DNA from: Neelides folsomi
Lineage: Eukaryota > Arthropoda > Collembola > Neelipleona > Neelidae
Reading direction: 5' to 3'
DNA length: 64,000 nucleotides
Assembly: GCA_034687125.1 (NCBI GenBank)
Contig: JAQGBZ010000002.1
Span: 620,001-684,000, forward strand
This document shows positions 9,491 to 59,368 of the stretch, piece after piece. The notes beneath the pieces were generated by a model. It ran no database searches, had not been told where the DNA came from, and worked only from the letters and a program-made list of their open reading frames with translations. The first letter of the stretch is position 1. The number at the start of each line of letters is the position of its first letter. The translations under genes and the position numbers were made by a program.

Positions 9491-12400
9491 CTATAATAGC
9501 TCCGAAGTCGTCCGTTTCAACCGCGTCAAACCGGTCTGGACATAGCGGACGAGGTCAAGGAGTGAATTGTTCAATGTCAGTGGCCCGTGGACTCGGTCGA
9601 TCGATATGAGGAATTCTAAAAAATCATTTTTAAAATCAATCTTTTATAAAATATTATTAAAGATAAATATTAAAAACTTAATAAAGATAAAATGATATCA
9701 TTTTAAGATTACAATACTAATATTTATATAAGTAGATGTTTCCAATTTCATTTGAATTTATTTATTTTGATTGAAAATAAATAATTTCCATAAATATGCC
9801 ATGAAATTCCTCATTAGCTCATTTACTCATTCCTAATTTCTTATCTTACTTCATAAACATATTTGCATATTCTGATAAGGATTACAAATTGATAACTGTT
9901 AGTATTAAATAATATTTTCACACAATAAATATCGATAAGGTAAATTTGTTGTATATTCAAAATACAATTTTATAATGTTTTAAATAACATGTAAATAATC
10001 GAAAATTAAATTGTGGAAACGAATTGTTCACCATTTGATTTGAGTGGAAAATGTTGTCAATAAGCCTTGAACTATCTCAATGATCTGACCACTGTTAACA
10101 TTTTTATGATTATAAACATAAATGTAGATAATAAACACGGTATGATAAAATAATTAATTGGCTCATAAGTAATTATCCCATGAATTGTGCAGTTTAAAAA
10201 TGCTAAATAGAATAGCTATAGCACAATCATACCAACTATAATATTTAATGATACGATCATAACCTAAACATATGACATGTGTTAAGCCACGTTAATTTAA
10301 TCTTCTGTATAAATCATATACATAGCATTATATAATATTTTCTCCTTCTCGTAATATGAAAATTCTTAAGATTTAATTAACTTTAAAAGAAATTATATAT
10401 AATTTCAAATTGTTGGTTAATACCTTCTAAATGGTATCGTTCGACGAGACTGTCCCCGGCCTCCCATAGGTCGTGTGCCTGAATGAGGTTCATCGTGTTG
10501 GAACACTGTTTGTACATTTGAGAGTAAAGTGAGCGAGGGATGGTTGCCATGGAGTGATGGTTCGGCGGGTGATGTGACGGGGTGAGATGCGGCGGGCCGC
10601 TGGATCCCGCAGGACTCGAATGCGGACTCCTTGGCGAAGGCGTGCTAAGCTGCGGACTATTGATGACGGGGGCCGGCGGTGGAACCTCCGTCCCCGGTGT
10701 AGTCTTGTGGAAGTGGTCGTTCAGGTACTGAATGATATCCTTCGTTTCTTTAACCTTCATCTTGAAAAGACGCAGCGAGAGCATCGATTGGCACCTCATG
10801 CTAACAAAAATATGAATTAGGACAATATACAAAAAATAATAATTAATTATAATTATATATAGTACAGCATCAAGTATCTTTTTTAAATCTCTCACAACTC
10901 AAAAAAGATACTTAACTTTGACACACCCTGTATATAAAAATACCCTATAAACCCTGTAGTATTGCCTACCATATATATTTAGATATACCAGATATACTCC
11001 TCTGGTTCATATGAATTGAGACTTTTTATCTTCCTTTCCTGAGGCCGAGCCAAGGAAAAGGAAGGTAAAAAGCAGAATAAATAGTCTCAATTCATATGAA
11101 CCAGAGGAGTACAATAATTAATAATAATAATTGCAATTAAATCAAGTGCGTATGATACCTCAAGACGATGATTTTTGCTTCTAAGATGTTGGTGAAGTCT
11201 GTCCGATTTCTGAATCGTGATCCAATGTACTTGATGAGAGAGAGCGTGTCCTTGTACATCGTATAGGCTGCATTGGATCCGATGTTCCGATCCCGCTCCA
11301 TGGAGATCCCTGTTAAAATGAAGTACATGCCGGCCTCGAGGTAGGTGCTCGCTTGAGCTGTGCTCATCCGCTCATTGTCGGCCTTGTGCTTCAGTCGCTT
11401 TGCCTCTTCCAGGTACGTGTCCTGGTCCCTACAAACCCACGTCCATTAGCCCTGTTGAAAAGAAGGGTCAAGGGAGAACCTTGAGTAATACTCCTCATAG
11501 TGGGAATCATTTCTTTCGAAGTATGAGAAGTAGATTGGAGCCGGTGGTGGTGGCGGCGAAGGGACGTGGTTGAGGGACGAATCGGGGGCAACGGCTGGTT
11601 CGAGGTCTCCGCCTGGGCTCAAGCTGGTGCTCACAGAACCCAAAGCAGCGCTGTTGGAGTCGGGAAGGTACGTGGTACAGTCGAAGTTCACAAGAGACTC
11701 TTCCCCCTATAATAAATATTATACGGTCATCATCGGTCATTACAATTAATACAAAGAAAATTATTAAATATAGGATTCATAGTTTAAAATATGGAAAATT
11801 GCAACTTGAATCATTGACCTCATTCAATGAAGTTAAAAATATTGGAAATCAAATTTCAGCATAAAATTTATTTAAATAATAAATGTTGAAGAAAATTTAA
11901 CTTGAGTTGTAATATAAAACTTGAATGGAAATAAAGCAGAAAACCAAATAACCATTTGCATAAATAAATATACATTTAATTTTTCTCTGAATTGACTTTT
12001 AAGGTAGTAAAAATGGCAAATATAAAATTACGTTCGTAGACATATCTTATAGCCAGAAATGACGAAAACAATAAATCGAGATAAATGTTAAGATAAGCAA
12101 ATAAAAAAGGCTAGAGAAAAAATCCATACACCTAATATACATAAAAATATTTTACATGGGAATATACATAATGACAATGAGCTACATGATTGATTGATCG
12201 TAATTGAATAAATGTAATTGGTTAATTGTAATTAATAATATCACCTTGGAATGTGAATCCGCTTCGAGGTTCGTTTTTGATTTTTTAGGAGGCGGTCGGT
12301 CTTTTTTCTTAGGACGTTTCTTTCCCTTTGGCGATGACGATGGCAGCGGCTCCGGCGGATCGACCTTTCCCTTGATCGGAGTTTTCTTTGGCGGCGGTCC

Positions 12401-14815
12401 ACGGACTTCCCCTTTCTTCTCATTGTTGTCATAAAGAAGTCGGAGTGATCCGCCCGTCGGCCCCCGCCCTTTTTCCTTGTTCTCTTTGTCGACTTTTAGC
12501 TGCGGCGGTGGCGGGGCCGGCATGGCTCCTTCAACCCTCGGCTTTCTCACAATCTTGCTCAAAGGAATTCGGCACACAAGGGAAGTTGGGATTTTGTCAT
12601 CTTTCGCCTTCACGTCCTCCTTTGGTTTCACAGTCGTCAAAGGAGTCTTTGGTTTGTTCTTGGTCCCTGCAGAGACACTCGGAACCACAGGCTTGTCCTT
12701 CCCCACCGGCGTCTTCGGTTTTTGGCCACTTGAGGTTCTGCTACTGGAAGAGCTGGTGGAACTGTTGCTGCTGGTCGTAGTCGAGGCACCCGAAGTCGGT
12801 TTCTTCACACCTCCGTTCCCTTTCGCCTCGTTGTGGGATTTGATGGCTGCGGCGGCCGCCACGGCCTCCTTCACCTTCTCCTTCACTGCAGCCACATTGG
12901 CCGATGAGAGTTTCTTGGGTGAAGTTAAAGGTTTCGGCGGAGCCGGTTTCTTGTTGGTTGGGGTAGAGGTCAAAGTGGGGCCTTTGGCCTTCGCCTTCAG
13001 GTCACCATTCGACACGTGCGGAATTTTGGCAGAGGCTGAAAGTGAGCTCCCGCTTTTCCGTCCACTGTCCTTCCCAGACACCCTGTTGACCGTCCCAGAG
13101 GAAGATGCCAAGGAAGTGGAGCTTCGTGATCGACTCCCAGAGGTCCCGGAAGAAGAAGAGCTTTTTGCATTGGTTGAACTCTTCTTGGTTTCTGGAGGTC
13201 CCTTGGCCGGCGGAGTTTTCTTGGCCGGATCTTCTTTGCTGGTGGTTGAACTCTTCTTTGCATTGGTGGAGGAAGAGGCCTTCGAACTCGACCCTGACTT
13301 GCTCTTCACTGGTGGCGGAGTGGACTTTGGCTTTGGCGGAGGCGGTGGGTTCATTTCTGTGTCGACCGACGGGCTTTTCTTCTCGTTCTTCTTGGTTCGG
13401 AAAATGTTCCAGATGGTTTCGCTCTTCTTCCGGTCGCTTTTGTCCACCTTCTTCGCCTTGGCACCTTTAGACGGCGAAGCTTCCTCATCCTCGGTCTTCT
13501 TCTCCGAGGACGAGGACCGTCGTTTACGCTTCCCCCCGCCCGGGGTGAGCGGAGCGGGTGAAGTGGCCGATTTGACGGAACTTGCCGGCGAGGACGGGAC
13601 CGGCGGCGGGGTGTCGAGTCGGTCTTTGGCAGCGTTGCTTTGGGGTTTGCTTGGAACGGCCACAGGGATCTTTGGCTTGGCTGGCGAAGGAAGATTTGGG
13701 GCCTCGTCGGCCTCATCGGAAGACGTCCCCGAGAGCGAGGGCCCCTTGACGCTGAGGAGCGAAAAGGGCTCGGTGAGGGGCTTCTTGGGAAGCGGCTTCT
13801 CTTTGGAAGTGATTTGGTTGGGCGGAGTTGTCGGGGGCTTTGGGTGGTCCGGCGGGGCTGGCGGCGGGGCCTCGAGGGGTCGTTGGGCGTTCATCAAGTC
13901 CCATAGTCCCCAGGAAGTCTGTGGAACGGTGGGCTCGGGCGGCGGCGAGGGCGGCGGTGAGGAAGCCGGCGGGGCCGGACCGGAGACGGACGAGGAGTCG
14001 TCGGAAGAGTCGGAGGAGTCGTAGGAGGATGAAGACTCCTCGGAGGACTCGATGGGCAGGATCGGGTTGGGCACTGTGGTCATGCCGGAAGTGTTTACGA
14101 TCGAGACGATGTCGGGTTCTTCTTTTGAGGGCCGTCGGGGCGGAGGTTTCTTGTCCTTGATCGGTGAGCCGATCTCTGTGAGCGGGGCCTTAACGTCCAT
14201 CATCTCCCTCAGCATTCCTTCCAGCTCGGCCTCGCTCTCTCGCAGGTCGGGCTTTTTGGGCGGCGGGGCTGGGGGACGCACATGGTTCGGAGGCGGCTGG
14301 GGTGGCGGAAGGAGGGGACCACTCGGGACGGGTGTCCTCTTCGGCTGCAGGGGCTGGCGATGGAGGGACGGCGGGGTGCGTGGGCGGGGCGGGATTTTTT
14401 GTTGTCCGGGTTGTCGTGGGGGCGGAGTATTTTTTGGTGGCGGGCTGGGTCTCGGGAAGTGGTGGTTTGGGGGCGGGAGTGTTGTGGGTTGCGGGGGCAG
14501 CGGTGCCCGATGGGCGCTGTGTTGGTCCACACCGATGAGCCGGTACTGGCTCTTGTCCAAAATGTGGGGCTTCACTGTTTCGAACTTGCCCAACACTTCC
14601 ACGTATTTGGTGTCCTCTCCCGAAGGTTTCACTTTGACAGGGGCATGGAACAAATCCGCAGCATTGGAACTTCGGTCCTTGTCTTCGACGGGGAGCATCT
14701 GGGCCCTCTCGGCCCGCTGCTTCTCTTTTTCTCTCTGCCTGTCCCGCTCGTGTTCGGGGGCATTCCGTCCTCTCCCGATCCGGTCGTGGTCATGACGAGC
14801 AGAGCTGTGCATCAT
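9491..14815 (-). CDS. lilli: AF4/FMR2 family protein (Lilliputian/AFF), super elongation complex scaffold
   Basis: Nuclear scaffold of the super elongation complex, bringing P-TEFb and AF9/ENL-type readers to RNA polymerase II (family knowledge). Coding exons on the minus strand: 14815-12245, 11706-11480, 11428-11159, 10800-10424 and 9615-9491, joining in phase to 1189 residues. Seen in the protein: a basic N-terminal region with the family signature DLFHAPVKV followed by QYRLIGV (about residues 40-105); proline-rich tracts; an acidic-serine transactivation patch (about 255-280); Lys/Ser/Pro low-complexity sequence; an AF9/ENL-binding-like motif LVCRIPLSKI (about 743-752); and the C-terminal homology domain (about 857-1189), with YLEEAKRLKHKAD, YTMYKDTLSLIKY and, in the last exon, GPLTLNNSLLDLVRY. 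The ATG at 14815 is the first in-frame Met, but the frame is open upstream to 14905, so a longer start is possible. It is divergent from GLYR1. Confidence 0.92.
10863..10931. repeat. Small hairpin with a mariner-like end, in an AFF intron
   Basis: AAGTATCTTTTTT near 10872 pairs with AAAAAAGATACTT near 10901-10913, and the right end continues to ACACACCCTGTA (reverse complement TACAGGGTGTGT). This resembles a Tc1/mariner terminus. The left end begins TACAG. It is probably a remnant of a very small inverted-repeat element. Confidence 0.4.
10997..11109. mobile_element. 113-bp palindromic MITE in an AFF intron
   Basis: The first 27 bases (starting CTCCTCTGGTTCATATGAAT) are the perfect reverse complement of the last 27. 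TA dinucleotides flank both ends (10995-10996 and 11110-11111), as expected for a TA target duplication. The middle also folds back imperfectly (ATCTTCCTTTCC against GGAAAAGGAAGGT), so the whole unit can form one long hairpin. It lies in the intron between AFF coding exons 3 and 4. Confidence 0.8.
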
Positions 14816-15599
14816 TCTGGCCTTCAACTGCTCGTTCCCCGCCGTCGACCTCGCGAGTAGGCATTGAGCAGGGTCCCGGGCGATCCGCCTCCCTCCGTCA
14901 CCCACACCCCCTGCACCCCCACTGACACAGGCAGGTTGAAGGGCGAGCGAGCACCCTTGAAGGACAGTCTGGCGGGCCGGAAGAACACCGACCTATGACC
15001 AAGGCGGCCTCAATGCGGACATGGGGCGACTGCCTCCCGTCCTGGCTCACACTCAAGTGGACTTCCACCTCAGGGACCTGCTCAGCCCTGCTCCCACTGC
15101 ACCCTCCAAATCACCTCGTGCGCGCCCTCTGCCCCGCTCCACCACAACCCCGGCCGCCAGGGGCCGCCCTCCAGAGTCTCGCTTCGCCCGGGCAAACAAA
15201 CACTGTGAGTGGCGCCAGAAGGGACGCAGCTTCCCTCGTCCCACAACCCGCCCTTGGTCCCTACCCTTTCCGTGGGCCGGTGGGGAGGTTGTTGTGGAAC
15301 CCCAACTGGCACTTTCTCACCGCGGCTAAAACCGGCCAATCTTCGCTTGTCTGCCACTCCAAGAGAAAAGCCTCTGTCTTTGCCAACAATCAAGGCCCTC
15401 CAGTTGTCGAAGTTCCACTTTGTTGACCTAACTTGACCCCAAGGATCCCCTTCAATAATCCGTCGACCAAGTAGGACCTTTTCCGGCGAGACGCTTTGCA
15501 TAAACTTGAAGCACAAGGAAAATATAAGAAATTCAAAAATTCAACAATTAACTAGCAGGATAATTATCAACGAGCGTTAAATTTTCGACACTTTCTGAG
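14816..15599. promoter_or_regulatory. GC-rich head-to-head promoter region between AFF and GLYR1
   Basis: This 784-bp interval separates the two divergent start codons (AFF at 14815 on minus, GLYR1 at 15600 on plus). It is far richer in G+C than the flanking introns, at least to about 15.5 kb, and carries CpG-containing words. Several open frames cross it but none has a recognised domain. It must hold both 5' UTRs and presumably both promoters. The AFF reading frame stays open to 14905, so part may be coding or 5' UTR. Confidence 0.55.
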
Positions 15600-18500
15600 A
15601 TGGCTGAGGAACTCAAGATTGGAGACCTTGTTTGGTTAGCTTTAAATATCTAATTTAATATTAGTTTTTATAAAGAATTCCCATTTTATAATTCCAACTG
15701 ACAACTCGCCAATTCATGTTGGAAACTTTCAAATGAACTTTTTCCCCAAAAAAATTTAAATTAATTTTAATATTAAATTAATTCTTTTCGATGTTTGTGA
15801 TAATTATAATTTTAATTATATTTCAATCATTATTTATTTTCCCCCATGTTGATCCAAATTTTTTAAAAAATAATCCAAAGGGGTATTTGTAAAAATCCAT
15901 CTTGAGTATAAATATTACATTATAAGATGAAAAAAATATTTTATAATTTGAAAATTCCTGTAATTTTAAATTATATTTTTTAAATGATTAATAATTTTTT
16001 TAGGGCGAAGATGAAGGGATTTTCTCCATGGCCAGGCAAAGTCTCTGAACCAAATGCTAAGATTAAGCGTCCAAAGTCCAACAAGACCCTTCATTGCATT
16101 TGGTTCTTCGGATCGAAGAACTTTGCTTGGATCGAAGAACACAATGTGAAGCCGTATTTACAATACAAAGATATTCTCTCAAAAGCCTGCAAAACTATTC
16201 AGTTCAAGGAGGCTTGTGCCGCCATTGACGATTTCATCAACAAGAGGAATCTGGGAGAGGAGGAAATCGAGGACGATTACACATTCAAAGAGGAAGAATA
16301 TGTAGAGGACATCTCAATGATCGACGCTTCACCTGCACCCTCAGAGAACAACGACATCAAGATTACAATTAAACAAGAGAAGTTAAGTCCAGTTAAGGAG
16401 AACCCAAGAAAGGTAATTTTCATTTTTATCCAAATTCCATAATCTCCATATGCGGCATGTTATAATTATTTAAAATGCTGGCAATTTAAATATTTTATAA
16501 AATAAAATGCAATATAATTAACATTATAACTAATAAATTTGAAATTTAATTTAACAAATATTAATTATAAAATTTAATTGTTCAGCCGGGTCGTAAAAAG
16601 AAGCTCAGTGTCGATGTGGAAAATGGAGAAGTTTCCAAGGGCGTGATTCCCAAAAAACGACGAACTTCTTCGGCTGCTGATAAAAAACCACCCGCTTCGT
16701 CCAAGTTTAACAACCATGCACCAAGGAAATCGGCCGTCACAAACTTTCTTGATCGACCAACGAGCGTTATTAAACCCGTAACTTCATTCTCATTTATTTC
16801 TTATTAATTAGTTAATTTTAAAAATATAGTTAAACACCTTTAAGATTATTTCCATCCTTTTAATTTCTCATTAATAATAAATAGTATTATTGTAATTTTA
16901 GGAAAATGAGCCGCTTAATGTTTCCCATGTAAGCCAGACATTAAAGGACAAGAAAATAAATCCATCAAAGCTACGATTTGGATTTTTGGGACTTGGCATC
17001 ATGGGCTCAGGAATGGTGAAAAATCTGATCAACTCTGGACACACTGTGGTGGTTTGGAATCGTTCTCCGGATAAGGTTAGAATTTTACAATTTTTATTTC
17101 TACCATTTATCAATATCATTATTATTATTATTATTTTTACTTTCATTCAATATGATATATATGAGAATTTGAAGGAAAAAAATGATGCATGAATTGATAA
17201 TGGTAGAAATCTGATTCAGAATAATTTGCTTTCTTTGTACAAGCTTACGTTGTCAATTTTTTAGTTCTGTCATTCTGGTCATTGTAGTTTAAAGTAGTTT
17301 TGTAGTAATATTAAAGTCCATTTATAATTAATTAGATTCACATTTGGATTTTTTAAAATTTGCTTGGATTATTAAAAACTGCCTTCATATCATTGCATCG
17401 GTGACGGTCATGCCAATAATAATATTATGAATTTAGAGAACAAATCACATAATTTTTATTTGACTAGTCAACATATATTTTTTCTTAATATAATACTTTG
17501 CACATTTAAAGACTACTTGAATATTCTCTAAAATTCGTCTACACAAAAGAATCTACTTACTTACGATTAGTTAGGTCAACTACACAATTATTTATTATTT
17601 CTCAAAATACATTTATTAGGTTCTTACAATTAATAAATATTTTACACAATTTTACGATTATGATGCGAATACGATCATTTAAGAGAAAATCTTTAGATGG
17701 ATTACAATTAGTGGAATTTTTTATTAGGTAATATTATATCATTACATATTTCATTAATAATTTCTATTCGTATATTTTTATTTACAAGTATGATTACCTC
17801 CTTGATTGATATTAAGAACATTTGAATATCTGAATGAACTTCTTGTTAAAATTTAGAATGGAAGAAATTAAATTCCATTTTAATAAATTTGATAAATCTC
17901 TAAATCCGGAAGCTGAATTCCTTCTAGTAATATATCTGATACTAATTCCTTCAATCTAATCAACACGTAAATTCAAATTTACAATTAGTCTAAAATAAAG
18001 AAACATGGATTTTAAATATAAGGGGTTAAACGGAATACAAAAAATAAGTTTTCTCTCAACATCTTTTACCGCAAAAGATGAAATTAAATATCTAGAACGA
18101 TTCAACGACTGAAGTCAAAACTTATATTAGGATGTAAAAAGATAATTAATACTAAATGTAAGGATGAGAAAATGAGAATGCGTGAAAGTCTTATTTATAA
18201 TACCTAATTACTATCCATTCCACTCAATTGAACTGAAACTCGACTAAACATTTTGGGGAAAAATAAACGGTCGAGGAGTGGAGTTTGAGATTTAAAGAAC
18301 TTATTTGCCCTGAATTGAAATTGACTTTTTTTTACTTCGTTGGAAATTGTTGTAATTGAATGTAAGGTTGAAAAGTAAAAATATAAGAAATTATAAATAT
18401 GGCTCATTGAAAAGAACAAACATTCACTAATTCACTTTGTTCCTATTTTCAACAAATTGGTTTAATGAAGATTTGTCATTAAATAGAAATATCCTAAAAG

Positions 18501-21500
18501 GGATTAAATATTTAAGAATAAAATGAGCGGGAATTGATAAGCAGCGTTTTGTATCGCTGGCACTTTCTTTGGCAGATCTTTCATTTTTTAAGCCAAATGT
18601 TGTCATTGAGTTATTTGTCAGCTCTTAAATTTTATTTTTTATTTAATTCGGTTGCGACCACCAATTTTACCAATTATTTCACAACGGTTGCACGCTGACT
18701 CAAAATTCATTTCCATTATTGATTTAAGTAGTTTGAAAATGAATTTTTGAAAATAAACCAACTGACTCAATTATGATAAAAGTTCTCTTTACAATATTTT
18801 ATCTTTCCATCCTTATCATTCAAATCTTTTCTTTTGCCTTAATTTTAAATAAGAATTTAATATGAGAATAATACATATTCCTTCGAGTAATTCTTCTAAA
18901 GTAAATCTCTTTTAATGATGAGATGCTTACAATAATAATTCGATAAATATGATTTACATAATAATGCTAACTGACTTAAAAGTTAATTTCTTATTACGAG
19001 TTTAATAGAAGTTCTATTCTCGTAGTTAATAATAAGTAATTAAGTATCTTTTATACGCATCGAATAACTATCACAATTTCGATCTTTACAGATTTATAAT
19101 GATGTTGGTTCATTTACAATTATTTTTTAATACGATCTATATTATAGTACCTTTTTTTAAACATGAAAACTTTCCTTTTATTCTTTCAATGGGATCTTTA
19201 AAGCCCCTAACTTGGTGGCTTTTTATTATAATATTTATATAGTAGTGATGCAATCGTGCTCATTTGTGTTCATTCCCTCGCTTAATCTTCATTAATTTCA
19301 TATAATTCTTTTTTTATATTGTTCACAATTTCTCTAAATACTACTTTTTTAAAACTTTTCCGCGAATATATATAGAATATCTCAAAAGTTATTGTTTTTA
19401 CAAATTGAATTTAAATCCCTCGATATTAATTCTAAACTATGAATATCATTGCTTTTTTAAAGCTTTAATCTTTTTTTAATGATTCGTGATGTAGTTTGGA
19501 AAATTGTTCAATCTCCTCTTTTAAAGCACTATTCTGCACCTTTACTGAAATAATCTTTACAAATTGAAATGAACTAAGTTTAAAATAAATCTAAAGAAAA
19601 AATCTCAGTCAAAATATTTTGTTGTATTTTTCCAACTAAAATGAAAGGATGAGGATCTAAAATGGATTTTTTTAAAATTCTATCTTTATTGACTCATATA
19701 TGCATTATTATTAATATAATGCAATCATTTGGATGGATGCTGGAAGTATTAACAGGAATTAAATAATAATAATCAAAATGTAATAATGGGGTTCTCGATT
19801 GGATGTAATTTTTACATTCGTGATTCCCCGCGTAATATTACCTCAGCAATTCATGATACAATGAGGATTTGAGTTGGAGGTCCCACTAGCAGAGTCCAAC
19901 ATGATAATTGTTTCAACTTGAGTTGAAGAACAGGCCATTTCTTCATCTTCTTCAATTTCTACGCGATGAGATGAACCAGGAGTCTTCTTTGGAGTGTAGT
20001 AGAAGTCTTTGTCTCGTTGAGCTTCAATTTCATCTTCATTATCCTCTTCAGCTGACTCAAAGGCTTCTTCCTCCTCTTCGTCCTCAGGAAGCGGCGGAGG
20101 GAGGAAGGATGGAAGCAAATGGATTGGGAAGGAGGATTGATGAAGAAAACTATCCATAAACTCAGGTGGAATCAAAAGTGAGACATTTTCCAATTTCTCA
20201 AGTGAAGAATCATTGAGAGCAAGCGGATCATGGGAATGATCTGATTCCCCAAATTCATCAAGATAAATTGAGTCACTTCGACCGCAAACTCCCATACCAC
20301 GACATGTATCAAAGTTGAGTGTCCTTGGAAGATTTTCAAGGATTTTATTCAACGTTGCCGCTTGCCACTTGTAAGTTTCTCTGAGTCGAAGTAGCTGATG
20401 ATTACTAAATTTCGACACACGATTCCGTTGGAATAAATAATTTTCCCTCACACGACAAAGTTGATTCGTAGAATAACTCGACACCCGTCGAATCTACACA
20501 AAAAATATAAAGTTTGAGATTTCTTGGAGAATTACAAACAGAGATTTAAATGTTTCATTGCAAGCCAGATGAAAATCCTTTGGCTCAATTTCAAAAATTT
20601 TGTCAAACTCTAAATAAACTCAAAGGAGGGAATTCTGTAAAGTTCATTTACTTAACAAAGGGTTTAAAATTGAACGTAGTTGTGGAATGGATTGAGTATT
20701 TAAAAAATTTAAATTTTACCTGATCATGATATTGATCCCGAAGGGTGTGTAGCTGCTGAGTCCCATATTCACGAATATCTGAGAGATTTTTGGTCTGAAA
20801 GGAGTAACTTTCACGAATCCGTTCCACTTGATAATAGCAGTTATCTTTGATTCGTTTCGCCTATAATAGATATAAAATAAATTAATTGAATGATTCTAAA
20901 TCCCAATGGAATTGAGCGGAGTTTTACTTTTTAAATTAATTTATACCTGAGAGTTATAATTATCACGCAACCAATCGAGTTGTGTGCTCTTGTGCTGTTC
21001 AAAGCTTTCGAAAAATGTTCGAAGACGACGAGCCTTGTACGCTGGTCGAATCCAACCAACTCCAAGTCTAAAAAATTAATCAATTTCAATTTATCAACTG
21101 AACAATTAAAAATATTAATTGTTATTAAATAATTAAAATATAATAATACGTACCTATTTAGGATGGCTCTGATGAATTGTACGAATAAGACTAAGGAGAG
21201 GAAACTAAAACTGGTTGCCCAACCTACAAAGATGCTCATTAGACGAATGTCTCTAAAAATCGAAGTGTCAATTCCCAAATGAACATAATGAGTGACATTG
21301 AGGTTCTCATAGGCAGCTGTACAGAAATAGACTCCAAAATCTTTCCTGGTCACTTTATCAATGAAAAGCCGACCATCATCTTTAACTTCATAATTGGCCA
21401 ATTCTTCATCTTCATCTCGAACTTGAGTTAGTTGACGCTTCCTCGGAGTGAGCCAATATATTTTAGGGAATGGATGACCAGCTGGGTGGCAATCAAGTAA

Positions 21501-24500
21501 TTTTCCTGATCCCACCTTTGCAAAATAATTCCTTGGACTTTTCCCGACAAGGTTCTTCACTGTGCAATTGAGCTCTTTGACGGTTTGAAGAATTGGAAGA
21601 CGTCTTGAGGATCCTTTGGAACACAAAGTGTCTCGCTTGAACTCCAATGGAATGGAAGAGAGCCAATGAGGAATCCAAGCGTCTCCACATGAACATTCCC
21701 ATTTATTCCCATGAGCCCCTAAGGAAGTGAGGGTTGGGAGATGAGCGAGGGGTTCTGGGAGGATTCTCATCCCATTGTAGGAAATATCCAAGTCTTTGAT
21801 TGAAGTATGAGCCAAAGAATCCAAAAGGAGATCCATTTCCAATGCTGACCTTCCTGAAGTATCTCGATTAGTAAAGAGACTTGGAGCCCATGTGTGAGTC
21901 ATAGACACAAACGAGAGCTTTGAATTTGAAATGAAATATGGTTCAAAAAATTGAATCACTTCGTTGTGCGAGAGGTCCAGGGAGACGAGTAATGGGAGAT
22001 GGGTAAAAACATCCGAGTCAACATAATTCACACGATTATGAGACACATTGAGATGAGTGAGGGAAAAAAGCCCAAAGAAGATTCCTTCTTGAAGATGGGT
22101 CAATGAATTGAAAGAAAGATCCAACTGGAGTAAGTTCCAAAGATTCCCAGCCGTCCTATATGGAAATTCTTGGAGGTCATTGTGAGCCAATGACAAATTT
22201 TGAAGTTTGAAGAGTGAAGCAAATGAGGCAGCTGAAATTCCTGGCACTTGACATCGCTCAATTTCCACTGAAAGAAGTGGCGGGAGGGCGGAGAGGAAAA
22301 AGGCGGCCAAATGTGGAGAGCTATCACAAATTACGAGACTCTCAAGACGACGAAGCGACAATAATCGCCCTCCACCAACTGGCCCATATTTCCCACCCAT
22401 AGGAATGGCTCCGACTGGAGAAGACCCAGAGATCCATAAACTTTCTAAAACTTCTCGTCCCTCGGCTATTACCCGAGAACCTCCAAGTGACATTGGGTCA
22501 AAGCGAGAATTGTGAATAGTGAGGGAACGAGTTGAGAAGGAGAGAAGAGTCGAAGCATCGATCTCTTCCTCCTCCCATCCTTCGATGATGAGCGATGTGA
22601 GAGTTTCGTTGATTGGAATCTCGTCCTCGTCAAACTTCCGTACAATTGTTGTTTCCGATGCATTTTGATTGATGAGGGTCAAAGCTTCATAGCTTGTTTC
22701 ACTCGAATTGGAACATGAGATGGTTAGGGCGAGAGTGGTGAGGTCGAAATTGCATCGACATGGACACTCCCATGCTCCACATGACACTTGGATGAGAAGG
22801 AGGACCCCAAGGACCCGTTCGATTCCCTTCACTTCCATATCCCCAATTCATCCATTAAAGGTCAAATCTCTTCCATGATCTTTTTCACATCTCTCCCCGA
22901 ATTGACCTAGAAATATTAAAAAAAATAAAGTTTTTCAAATTATGTTTAGATTATGGGTGTAATTGTAATATATTGGTTGATATATGTCCATGGAATTGGG
23001 ATTGGGATTCTCAGAAGGTTTTTAAGTTTTTACAAAAGGCTTTTGACTATGTGAGTCTTATATTAATAATAGTTGGGGTATATTAAAGAACCGATGGAGT
23101 CGAGAACTGGTTGTTAAACCTGAGGAAGGAAGGATCGATAGGGAAATCCTACAATTCCCCCGCCGTTCCTGTCGCAATCTCGGTTTTTTTTATTTCAGTA
23201 GAATGGCGATGTGTTTGCAGCCCCTACCTTGCACCAAAACAATTCCCAGAGATCAAGAAATGCACGATATATTTTTGAGCTTGGTTTAACATATAAGCCT
23301 TTTTAGTTTCACTTTCAATTCCTCTTCATTTCTTAATAATGAGACCTTGAGGCTTCATAGGGAAATGAATATAAGAATTTAGTAGAAGCGAGGATTGGCA
23401 TTAATCCTTTTACTGGATTAAACCAGGTGTTACTTGGATGGGGAGAGTCAACATTAAAAATCGATTTAGAATTAAATCAACTACAACTTGGTTTTTTATA
23501 TCTATATAATTCTTCAACCTTTAACATTCCTTGTCTTCTATTGGAAAGTGTAAAGAATTGGTTTAAGGAAAAAACGGTTCCTTTCACACCTTAATACAAT
23601 TTCTCTACATTTAGATAACCTACTGATGGTTAAAACTGAATGAGGCCAAGGGTCCTAATATGGAAATTCAAAGTTCATATATATATAAAATTGAATATAT
23701 TTCTAATACTTATTAATAATCTTTACCTTTATACAAGTTTTGTATATTAATTAATGTATATACATCTTGTTTCCCATTTTCTCTTTTCCAAATGGAATTT
23801 TTATGAATTTAAGAATGGAGGTTTGGGGTCCAAAAAAAGTATGTTGAAGGAGGCGGCAGAATGAGGGTGTGGTTTTAATTCTATATTCAATATCCTAACC
23901 GTTTGTGTTGGTCGGGACGGGAGGGAGAGTTTGTTTGACACACGACAGGGTTAATTGACTTACGAAGGTAGTTAAATTGTGTTGTGTGAGAGCGAACGAT
24001 GAATTGTCTTGCAAGGCCAAAGGAGGGGAGACGATTGGGAGGGCGGTGGACTTGGCGGAGAGATGGCATTATATGAACCTGCGCATAATATGCCAGGGAG
24101 ACCCAAACCCATTTCATACCATACACATCCCTTCAATTCATATTAAATGGACAATACTTATAATACACCAAATATACATCCGTATATATGTATATACGTA
24201 TACTTACATATAACATACATCATACGTATGTCGAACATATGCATATATATGGGATATTTATTCTGGATCATGTTATCCCCATAGTGGGGAAGGTTTTTGG
24301 TCCAGGTGTGTTGGAGGAGATCCAACTCACCTTCTTCAGCTACTCGTATATCTTGGATCTTCAGTCATTTACACAAGAATTTGTAAATGAGAGATCCCAA
24401 GGAGGAAAATCGATCCAGAAATGCGCAATGGGATGGGACCTATGGCCTCCTTAAAATAATGAAATACTATGATTGTTAGTTTATATACTTAATATTCATA

Positions 24501-26585
24501 TAAATTTATTAATGTTATTAATTTATTAGTTTATTGTTAATTTGACGTGTAGGTATTTTAGCATTATATAGGCATAAGTATAGGTATATTTACATATTAG
24601 AAATGTTTATGATTTGGAGCATTTATGATTATAATGATGAATATGATTAAAGTGAGTTGGGTTATTTAGGGGGGATTGGAATGAGGATGGGGAGATTCTT
24701 TAGCTGAGAAATTAATGTTATTTTTTAATTTAAAATGCTCTAGGTATGTTATTTAGTTTGAGGGGGAAGTAGTAATACGATTTCTTATGGACATTATTTG
24801 TAAGTTGGTTTAAGCAATTTTGTTATATCAATTAAATTAATGTGTAAAATGAGATTGTAATAGAATAGTGACAGGGATTAATGTTAGTCATATTTAGCAT
24901 AAATTGGGAATTGAGCATAGTTAAGCATTCTTGGTACAATAATTGTTTGTTTAAGCGTGGCGTGGAAAATAATTTTTCGTGATAAATGAGCTGAAAGAAG
25001 AACAAGATTGCGTCAACGTTTAGTGTCTGAGAATTGTTTAACTTCGAGTTTCCCTTCATATATTTCATATCAGAATCATTGAGCAATCAAACCCTTTAAT
25101 TACCTAATATGATTTAATTATTTGTTATTTATCAATGTAATGAAATTTGGACATACTTTCGAATAATTTACAGTTAATGGATATTTTATTTATTATGTTT
25201 ATGAATGCTTTTATTTGAGGTCTTTACATATTTAGAATATTGAATACTTATTGTTAGTTAATAGAATTCAAATTGTGGAAATCAATTATTGATTAAGTGA
25301 TAAATTCATTGGATTGTTTTTGTCTCTTGTCATTTCATGACCAAAGAGCTTTTAAGTGCTTTATGATAAGCTTTTATATATGACATCTCTTTCTATATTA
25401 TAAATCTATTGTGATGGTAAATATGTTTATTTATCTAATTTTCAGTGCAGGGACTTTGTGACTGCTGGGGCTGATCAAGGAATGACTCCATCAGACGTCA
25501 TCATTTCTGCGGACATTACTTTTGCTTGTGTTTCGGATCCCCAAGCAGCTAAAGACGTAATGGCTACAAATTGCTAATGATGAATGAAAATTATTAAATT
25601 ACTAATGAATGTATTTGAATATGGTTTTTAGATGGTTTTTGGTAATTGTGGAGTTCTCCAAGAAATGACGGCGAGTAAGGCTTATGTTGAGATGACGGGT
25701 ACAGACTCAGAAACGTCTCAGGACATTGCTGAAGCAATCGGGTCAAAGGGAGGAAGATACCTTGAGGCCCAAGTTCAAGGAAGTAAAACCGAAGCTGAGG
25801 AAGGAACATTGGTCATCATAGCAGCCGGAGATCGATCACTTTACGAAGAATGCCAGTCCACTTTCCAGGCTATGGGAAAACATTCCTTCTATCTTGGTTA
25901 GATAGTTTACTTTTTATATTTTATTAATTAGTATTTTATGTATAAAATGAATAATTCTTGTATCATTAATGAAAAAGAAATTATTTAATTGGACATTAAT
26001 TATTTATTCTATTATTTCTATATAATGGTCTTTTTTTATTAGAGAGAAATTATTTTATTTGGTTTATTATAATAAGTGTAGTGGTTAAACAATTGTTTAT
26101 TATTTTCCAATTTATAGGAGATGTTGGGAACGCGTCGAAGATGAACCTCGTTCTCCAAATGATTTCCGGGATTGCATTATCGGGCCTGGCAGAAGGAATG
26201 GCTCTTGCAGACAGAGCCGGCCTTCAACAACGAGACCTCTTGGAGATTCTCGACCTTACCAATCTTTCCTGTCCAGTCTTCAAAGAAAAAGGAGCTGGTG
26301 AGGATTTAATTAAACAATTATTTTAAATTTTTATTTTCTTAATATTGAATGAAGTGTTTCTAATATTTGGCTTTATTCTTTTTAGCGATTATCGATGGAA
26401 GTTTTCCGACTCAGCAGCCGTTGCAACACATGCAAAAAGATCTTAATTTGGCTCTGAGTATGGGACATACCTTGGAACAGCCTCTTCCTCTCGCCGCCTC
26501 TGCCAACGAGGTTTACAAACACGCCAAGCGACTCGGATATGGCGAACATGACGTGTCGGCTGTATACATCCGAGCACGCTTTTGA
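15600..26585 (+). CDS. GLYR1: GLYR1/NDF (NPAC): PWWP domain plus 6-phosphogluconate-dehydrogenase-like domain
   Basis: Nuclear chromatin factor; in other animals it binds H3K36me3 nucleosomes, eases RNA polymerase II passage and partners KDM1B/LSD2 (family knowledge). Coding exons: 15600-15634, 16001-16412, 16586-16777, 16902-17075, 25446-25556, 25632-25896, 26118-26297 and 26386-26585, in phase, 522 residues. Seen: [14 protein letters not shown] opening a PWWP domain with the core SPWPGKV and [13 protein letters not shown] (about residues 5-95); a Lys-rich linker with PGRKKK (about 150); a Rossmann dinucleotide motif GLGIMGSGM (about 240); [26 protein letters not shown]; and a C-terminal helical domain ending in [21 protein letters not shown]. 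The family is usually considered catalytically inactive; I cannot settle the active-site lysine here. The 8.4-kb fourth intron (17076-25445) hosts an antisense LRR-Ig gene. Confidence 0.95.
17076..19842. other. GLYR1 intron 4, left part: AT-rich, no gene seen
   Basis: Intronic for GLYR1 and 3' flank of the nested minus-strand LRR-Ig gene. AT-rich throughout. No exon, RNA gene or clear inverted-repeat element recognised. Confidence 0.5.
19843..22838 (-). CDS. LRR-Ig single-pass transmembrane protein with hendecad-repeat cytoplasmic tail
   Basis: Probable cell-surface adhesion or signalling receptor of the arthropod LRR-Ig group; exact orthology not claimed. Minus-strand coding exons: 22838-21154, 21067-20947, 20860-20720 and 20493-19843, in phase, 865 residues. 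Order: signal peptide (1-21, core [10 protein letters not shown]); cysteine-rich LRR N-cap (CPCRC near 25); leucine-rich repeats to about 385, for example [14 protein letters not shown] and [15 protein letters not shown]-cap ([11 protein letters not shown]); one Ig C2-type domain (LLDCHP to YFCTA, about 445-515); transmembrane helix (about 531-558); and a cytoplasmic tail. The tail starts with about ten 11-residue units of form hxRhRxxYxxQ, then ends in an acidic stretch and a Ser/Thr-rich C-terminus. The gene lies wholly inside GLYR1 intron 4 on the opposite strand, so it needs its own promoter near 22.9-23.3 kb. Confidence 0.9.
22839..25445. other. GLYR1 intron 4, right part: presumed promoter region of the nested gene
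   Basis: Mixed composition at 22.85-24.45 kb, then AT-rich. The nearest 500 bp should contain the 5' UTR and promoter of the antisense LRR-Ig gene. Open frames here are short and unrecognised. No other gene seen. Confidence 0.45.
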
Positions 26586-58414: not shown

Positions 58415-59368
58415 TTAAGTTTCCACTTCCTCTTCTTCCAAATCTTCCATTGCATCTTCCCTCTTGGTGATGTGAAGGGCGCAGCAAGCCATGATGATTC
58501 TTCCAGAAGTTTCAGGCTCATTCCTCAGGTACCGCAAGTATGGAAATTTCCGCTTCGGCGTTCCAATAGCCCTTTCGACAATTTGTCGTGTTCGGCGCGT
58601 TGTTGAAGCGCCTCACCGCTTCAGCGTCCAAGTTCCCTGTGCAGAGGATCGGCCTCATCAGCCATGGGCGTAGAGGGTAGGCTGAGTCTCCAAGTATCAC
58701 GGATCCTTCAAACGGTCTCCATCTATTCTCGAACTCTTCAAAAATTGACGTTTCTCGGAAGGCCCTCGAATCGTGCACTCGTCCCGGCATACGAGCAGAA
58801 ACAAAGAATGACAAATCGGGTTCGGCCATCAGATAAGCGTTGATTGAATGACAAATGTGTCTGTCCACAAAGTCTCGCTCTGCCTCTCCTCGTGGTGCTT
58901 GAATCTGAAACAGGCTCCCATCGACCGTTCCGCAAACGTTGGGAAATCCTCCATGGCCGAAAAATTTTATTGGCATTTGATTCACATTGGCTGGAAATTG
59001 CACAACGTCGTGAAATTGGTGATCAACAATGACTGCAGTGACCCTGTGCACGATTCGATGCACCGTTGGTAAATGCAGTCTTGCCAAACCTGTGAACATC
59101 GGAGACACGATTTTGAGACCCACAGCCGTACCAGTAGAGCCACCAAGAGTTGTTGTTGGGGAGAAAAAGGCCGATTCCTATTGCTTTTATGCACCAAAAA
59201 CCGCCCGAATCGATCCAATATGACTTCAGCTTCTTCGGTTGACACACGGAATCGCATCGTAAACACTGCTCCAACAAAGTGAAAGTTGATTCTCGCTCGA
59301 AACACTTTTGGCCTTCGAATTGGCAGCGATTCATTTTCCTCTTCGCTCTCCGAGTGATAAAAGTCCAT
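58415..59368 (-). pseudogene. Broken HARBI1-like DDE transposase/nuclease
   Basis: Minus-strand relic from the Met at 59368 (MDFYHSESEEENES) to the TAA at 58415-58417. Seen: an N-terminal helical part (FRVSTEEAEVILDRFG), the first catalytic Asp in GTVDGSLFQIQAP (near 58920), the second in ILGDSAYPLRPW (near 58690) and the Glu in VERAIG (near 58570). The catalytic triad is therefore present but split across frames: one break near 59125 and another near 58600. The C-terminus ACCALH corresponds to the usual AC.LHN.C ending. Very short introns are an alternative to frameshifts but no good splice sites are seen. Confidence 0.85.

Follow-up and report, generated by a model that had tools for sequence, protein, structure and literature searches.

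IGLR-2 of C. elegans has been described as a protein of 773 amino acids with five LRRs, one Ig domain and one transmembrane (TM) helix, in which the substitution G497D lies (PMC8088037, PMC4833288). These lengths imply a cytoplasmic tail of about 270 residues, called "large" in one account (PMC8088037) and "relatively short" in another (PMC4833288). A stop at Q593 in the worm protein, 96 residues beyond the substituted TM position, is likely to be a loss-of-function allele (PMC4833288), and it may act through loss of mRNA. IGLR-2 is required for PAQR-2, a worm AdipoR homologue, and the two proteins interact on plasma membranes (PMC4833288, PMC8088037); IGLR-2 is presented as the obligate partner with which PAQR-2 keeps worm membranes from rigidifying (PMC8088037). 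The TM domains of PAQR-2 carry the dependence on IGLR-2 (PMC7428288), and contact between the two is reported to be mainly through TM domains (PMC8088037, PMC7428288). A proposal published as speculative has the cytoplasmic domain of IGLR-2 displacing the N-terminal regulatory domain of PAQR-2, or IGLR-2 promoting multimerisation (PMC7428288). A 2021 review called action of the cytoplasmic domain speculative and stated that no functional IGLR-2 orthologue had been identified (PMC8088037).

The worm gene ZC262.3, which is iglr-2 (PMC4833288), and fly CG16974 are apparent one-to-one orthologues (PMC2235866). The fly has nine LIGs, named as kek1-6, lambik, CG15744 and CG16974 (PMC5591008). In a neural RNAi screen in flies CG16974 was classed with cell adhesion (PMC2435276), it is possibly expressed in muscle precursors (PMC5591008), and IGLR-2 has been placed in worm host defence (PMC7734252). 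Here we describe, in a stretch of 64,000 nucleotides from the collembolan Neelides folsomi (the window), a receptor of this known kind whose tail carries, near the membrane, a repeat that is regular and, as far as we searched, unnamed.

Structure and placement of the receptor gene

The gene lies on the minus strand, and its four exons translate into 865 amino acids followed by a stop. Its parts, in window positions, are as follows.

21154..22838, minus strand: exon 1, with the signal peptide, LRRs at about residues 182-408, the Ig domain at about 433-517 and the TM helix at about 531-556 (translation, Pfam, hydropathy)
20947..21067, minus strand: exon 2, with a basic juxtamembrane stretch, weak unit 0 and unit 1 (translation)
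20980-21012, minus strand: weak unit 0, residues 581-591, in exon 2
20947-20979, minus strand: unit 1, residues 592-602, in exon 2
20720..20860, minus strand: exon 3, phase 0-0, 47 amino acids, units 2, 3, 4 and 5 (translation; predicted by AlphaFold2 as a single helix)
19843-20493, minus strand: exon 4, with units 6-9, a degenerate trailing unit, the rest of the tail and the stop
20362..20493, minus strand: units 6-9, at the start of exon 4 (predicted by AlphaFold2 as helices with breaks)
20329..20361, minus strand: degenerate trailing unit [11 protein letters not shown], residues 694-704
19843..20328, minus strand: rest of the tail, containing Cys, Gly and Ser, then Pro-rich and acidic stretches, then the stop; free of an 11-residue period

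The introns, of 86, 86 and 226 nt, are GT-AG and have GC contents of 0.13, 0.21 and 0.27, against 0.41-0.45 in the exons. Pfam matched LRR_8 (E = 6.9e-20) and Ig_3 (E = 1.7e-8), a rough LRR pattern gave six matches, and hydropathy maxima near residues 9-27 and 533-556 point to a signal peptide and a TM helix. By Pfam and hydropathy the protein has the parts of a single-pass LIG receptor, namely signal peptide, LRRs, Ig and one TM helix. Its tail starts at residue 562 and comprises 304 residues.

The receptor gene (19843-22838, minus strand) is flanked by exons of the other strand, on one side a PWWP exon (15984-16439, plus strand) and on the other exons like NAD_binding_2 and NAD_binding_11 (25632-25898 and 26000-26323, plus strand; the last below the Pfam cut-off), and so looks nested within an intron of a plus-strand host gene that we take to be NPAC/GLYR1-like. 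Elsewhere in the window, one of two minus-strand ORFs (10386-10898 and 12185-14992) contains an AFF4 C-terminal homology domain (E = 3.1e-15); upstream of it is a Ser/Pro/Lys-rich ORF of 936 residues without a Pfam match, and we presume that the two perhaps form one AFF/Lilliputian-type gene. A DDE_Tnp_4 transposase-like ORF is found at 58521-59177 on the minus strand (E = 1.3e-15).

The genome (75 Mb, 840 contigs) has an arthropod character, with 39 matches to PF00379 (Chitin_bind_4), a cuticle-protein domain biased towards arthropods, of which 14 control genomes had none. To place the receptor, we intersected by eye the sites of Ig_3 and LRR_8 matches in this genome; of the candidates, 150 each were scored, out of 390 for Ig and 324 for LRR. 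Among the matches listed there were at least six LRR-plus-Ig loci including this gene. Each of the remaining five, L023-L027, is a stretch of 8.0-9.5 kb; three of them were judged by eye to be Kekkon-like, one LRIG-like and one peroxidasin-like, and in L026 the LRIG-like stretch is followed on the same strand by an ORF of 862 amino acids with, by eye, a RhoGEF-like end. Judged by its architecture and by this elimination of the other listed loci, the receptor most likely corresponds to Drosophila CG16974 and C. elegans IGLR-2. Few LRRs, a single Ig and a tail of several hundred residues match the published description of IGLR-2, a combination that is not specific to the CG16974/IGLR-2 group. 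The same genome has an exon (L021, contig C161) homologous to human AdipoR2 over 108 residues (E = 2.7e-43), and PF03006 matched at seven places on three contigs. The AdipoR gene to which these matches point is needed for the role proposed below and does not define the IGLR-2 group.

The repeat, its period and its exon borders

A sequence-only reading of this DNA had reported about ten units of 11 residues in the cytoplasmic tail, each ending in Gln and one of them bearing a three-residue insertion, and both points stood. Residues 581-693 divide into nine units of 11 residues and one of 14 ([113 protein letters not shown]), with Gln terminal in 10/10; the longer one is unit 4 (residues 625-638), with a TKN insertion. 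A weaker additional unit, at residues 581-591, lies upstream of those first noticed. The interval originally given for the repeat, 20493..21067, stops short, as units continue to 20362 and a degenerate part to 20329.

We compared BLOSUM62 self-similarity by lag with that of 500 shuffles. For residues 592-693, self-similarity was 1.36 at lag 22 and 0.57 at lag 11; the top value was reached in 0/500 shuffles, which had a maximum of 0.19. The first 130 residues of the tail likewise peaked at lag 22, with 0/500 shuffles as high. From residue 692 on, the tail was without an 11-residue period (181/500 shuffles reached the observed value), and the ectodomain gave 1/500 with a top lag of 24, as LRRs would give. 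The repeat of 11-residue units in the receptor tail is genuine. The period of 11 first claimed for it is present, but lag 22 is the stronger because two types of unit alternate: A units follow hxxhRxxYxxQ, and B units mostly have an aromatic residue at position 7 and a small one at position 8. Position 5 is Arg and position 8 is Tyr in all five A units; in B position, the four units carry C, G, S and S at 8 and, in three cases, an aromatic residue at 7, which is missing from [11 protein letters not shown]. Of 20,000 shuffles of unit order, 170 gave as large a contrast of same-parity with opposite-parity pairs as that observed, and similarity by unit lag was 17.9, 18.6 and 18.3 at lags 2, 4 and 6, against 5.5-8.2 at lags 1, 3, 5 and 7. 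The stronger period is 22 residues, that is, two hendecads (A+B) rather than one. An ungapped match of 33 residues between units 1-3 and 5-7 (42% identity) hints at duplication of a larger block, but the unit lags show an even/odd effect only and we do not claim a 44-residue unit. The consensus hxRhRxxYxxQ, proposed earlier for all units, describes the A units; among the nine units that make up residues 592-693, Tyr8 is present in 5/9, Arg5 in 6/9 and Arg3 in 6/9, and the regular spacing of tyrosines is thus a property of the A units and not of the others.

DNA identity among units 1-9 averages 44%, and identity by codon position is 43% at the first, 56% at the second and 34% at the third; the terminal Gln is encoded by CAG in five of these nine units and by CAA in four. 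The low DNA identity and the differing codons for the same residue rule out a recent DNA tandem array or duplication. Since third positions are the least alike and DNA identity is only 44%, the repeat looks old and maintained at the protein level.

Two phase-0 exon borders do fall, as first read, exactly after a terminal Gln (Gln602 and Gln649). Both follow an A unit of the same kind, LxxLRDxYxxQ, which favours the earlier suggestion that the repeat grew by whole units or exons. Exons often end in CAG, the usual intron context, and 5/9 CAG sites and 3/7 MAG|R sites in the coding sequence of the repeat are at unit ends. Because so many CAG sites coincide with unit ends, the register of the borders may mirror splice-site preference, and growth by whole exons is weakly supported. 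Exon 3 is symmetrical (0-0); a transcript that skips it would stay in frame and in hendecad register but lose four units, among them the one with the insertion.

The first reading knew of no named domain for the tail, and our searches with it agree: no match exceeded the cut-off in Pfam or NCBIfam, and there was no credible sequence relative in the PDB. The candidates discarded as weak and composition-like were MecR1 (the best in the PDB, E = 0.0048, judged spurious), CFAP20 and Sds3 from the PDB, FBF1 (E = 0.041) and PC4 (0.082) from Pfam, and the FlgB family model (0.28) from NCBIfam. Within the genome, a query of 172 amino acids from the tail matched its own three exons alone at E up to 10. 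A diverged second copy could escape such a search, the sensitivity of which was limited: a concatenation of the five A units (55 amino acids) matched nothing, its own gene included. The A-unit pattern was matched at five sites of this gene and nowhere in ORFs of at least 30 amino acids within L023-L027. Lag-11/22 scores alone did not separate the loci, as a Tyr/His-rich ORF of 51 amino acids in L024, which we read as non-coding, scored 0.39, equal to the best window of this gene. In collections of viral and prokaryotic contigs, 2 and 22 stretches, respectively, fitted the peptide pattern, none of them confirmed, a result that says little for an arthropod gene. No description of such a tail showed among the open-licence papers listed in our literature searches. 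Insect orthologues may have a similar tail, which would lower the novelty of the one described here.

Predicted helix geometry and competing readings of the repeat

Residues 581-704 contain one Gly and no Pro, against 9.4% Pro+Gly protein-wide. Columns 1, 4 and 8 of the units are the most hydrophobic, giving the 3-4-4 spacing of hendecads; plotted on an 11/3 helix, they cover an arc of about 65 degrees. The hydrophobic moment of residues 581-704 peaks at 99 degrees, at a value reached by 5/1000 shuffles on the Eisenberg scale and 0/1000 on the Fauchere-Pliska scale; within three shorter segments it was mostly no better than in shuffles (402 and 88, 428 and 202, and 107 and 13 of 1000 as high on the two scales). 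AlphaFold2, run on single sequences as monomers, predicted exon 3 as one unbroken helix passing through the three-residue insertion (pLDDT 94.1; five models at 70.4-94.1, three of them at 70-76). For exon 4, the initial 71 residues were predicted as helices with breaks (pLDDT 74.4; models at 50.1-74.4), with an unstructured start at 650-657 and interruptions at 675-679 and 691-693; two of these breaks lie within units of type B, namely 6 and 8, and the third falls where unit 9 ends. The repeat region is probably helical, with exon 3 behaving as a single predicted helix and the exon-4 part as a broken one.

The first reading had left a choice between a coiled coil and a rod lying along the membrane. 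Two features of a hendecad coiled coil, the 11-residue period and hydrophobic positions a, d and h, are found here, and because the hydrophobic columns span only about 65 degrees, the fit to such a coiled coil is somewhat better than to a membrane-lying helix. We prefer the coiled-coil rod with moderate confidence only. Its hydrophobic core would be discontinuous, since position h is small (C, G, S, S) in the B units.

An amphipathic helix of 11/22-mers parallel to the inner leaflet, possibly reading lipid packing, seems unlikely to us, though several features would suit it. Helices built of 11/22-mers are known from apolipoproteins, perilipins and synucleins, and the repeat here has a 22-residue (11+11) period, starts about 25 residues past the TM helix and is net positive in units 5-9 (11 K+R versus 4 D+E); its partner would also be linked to lipids if the receptor corresponds to IGLR-2. 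On a HeliQuest-type lipid-binding discriminant, with limits of 0.68 and 1.34, 11/117 windows of 18 residues scored at least 1.34 and 61/117 scored 0.68-1.34, so that 72/117 reached at least the grey zone. The hydrophobic stripe is narrow, however, with a mean moment of 0.32, and the eight best windows have moments of just 0.14-0.36, owing their score to charge. The repeat is also without the Pro punctuation expected of such helices.

The repeat could instead space six YxxQ motifs, a STAT-docking consensus of cytokine receptors, as an array for phosphotyrosine docking. A paper on a fly receptor gives YXXQ as the consensus site for STAT binding (PMC2914635). All six YxxQ motifs of the protein (6/6) are inside the repeat, and STAT_bind matches occur at four places on three contigs of the genome. 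In A units, however, YxxQ follows from Tyr at 8 and Gln at 11 and is for the most part a consequence of the repeat pattern, and Gln also ends all four units in B position, where YxxQ occurs in unit 4 alone. SH2 docking requires an extended peptide, and the region is largely predicted to be helical. We consider this reading improbable.

A further account makes the region a single stable helix or coiled coil with no special role in clustering, either an ordinary spacer or a strip on which a long cytoskeletal or adaptor partner docks. Hendecads have been described in many coiled coils, and the weak match to FBF1 (12.9 bits against a cut-off of 45) suggests generic coiled-coil composition. The unbroken series of terminal Gln and the A/B alternation exceed the regularity that a generic spacer needs, and we hold this account to be rather unlikely.

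A possible membrane-proximal rod and its comparison with known systems

We tentatively favour, while thinking it quite possibly wrong, a coiled-coil rod next to the membrane that clusters or couples an LRR-Ig receptor, the putative counterpart of CG16974 and IGLR-2. The helix in this proposal rests on the structure predictions; oligomerisation, orthology and the partner are further suppositions. The rod would be a helical segment of about 113-124 residues, made of hendecads in alternating A/B pairs. Its a-d-h core (positions 1, 4 and 8) could drive self-association as a nearly straight coiled coil, beside which the Gln residues at position 11 would form an unbroken ladder. Such a rod might cluster receptor copies or couple them rigidly and, if one helix at 1.5 Angstrom per residue, would hold the acidic, Pro-rich end of the tail about 17-19 nm from the first unit. 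Placed just below the TM helix, it would suit clustering or the relaying of a TM rearrangement. If the receptor is the IGLR-2 counterpart, the rod may be a cytoplasmic arm that clusters the AdipoR partner or acts on the AdipoR N-terminal regulatory domain.

That contact between IGLR-2 and PAQR-2 is mainly through TM domains counts against the tail rod as the acting part, and any of the adhesion, muscle-precursor or host-defence settings could be the true one. A bolder version strikes us as distinctly doubtful, namely that arthropod IGLR-2/CG16974 receptors conserve the rod as a cytoplasmic module not described before, which continues straight from the TM helix, responds to bilayer state and unlocks AdipoR; if true, arthropods would share the membrane-fluidity sensor pair of worms. 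The importance of the repeat rises if the IGLR-2/AdipoR link holds, and in an arthropod candidate a module of defined repeats would offer testable parts for receptor clustering and AdipoR activation.

Compared with described systems, the receptor shares few LRRs, one Ig, one TM helix and a cytoplasmic C terminus with IGLR-2; a hendecad repeat is not part of the published descriptions of IGLR-2 and CG16974 with which we compared it. The Kekkon, LRIG/lambik and AMIGO families share the LRR-plus-Ig ectodomain and single TM helix, and the stretches of this genome that we named Kekkon-like and LRIG-like by eye differ in being without the A-unit pattern in their ORFs of at least 30 amino acids. Like the apolipoprotein, perilipin and synuclein helices, the repeat has an 11/22-residue period, but it lacks their Pro breaks and has a narrower hydrophobic face and a modest moment. 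With hendecad coiled coils as described for the peripheral stalk of rotary ATPases, lamin segments and MOM1 CMM2, it has in common the 11-residue period and hydrophobic core positions; it differs from those descriptions in its 22-residue A/B alternation, in the Gln that ends every unit and in its place beside the membrane in a receptor.
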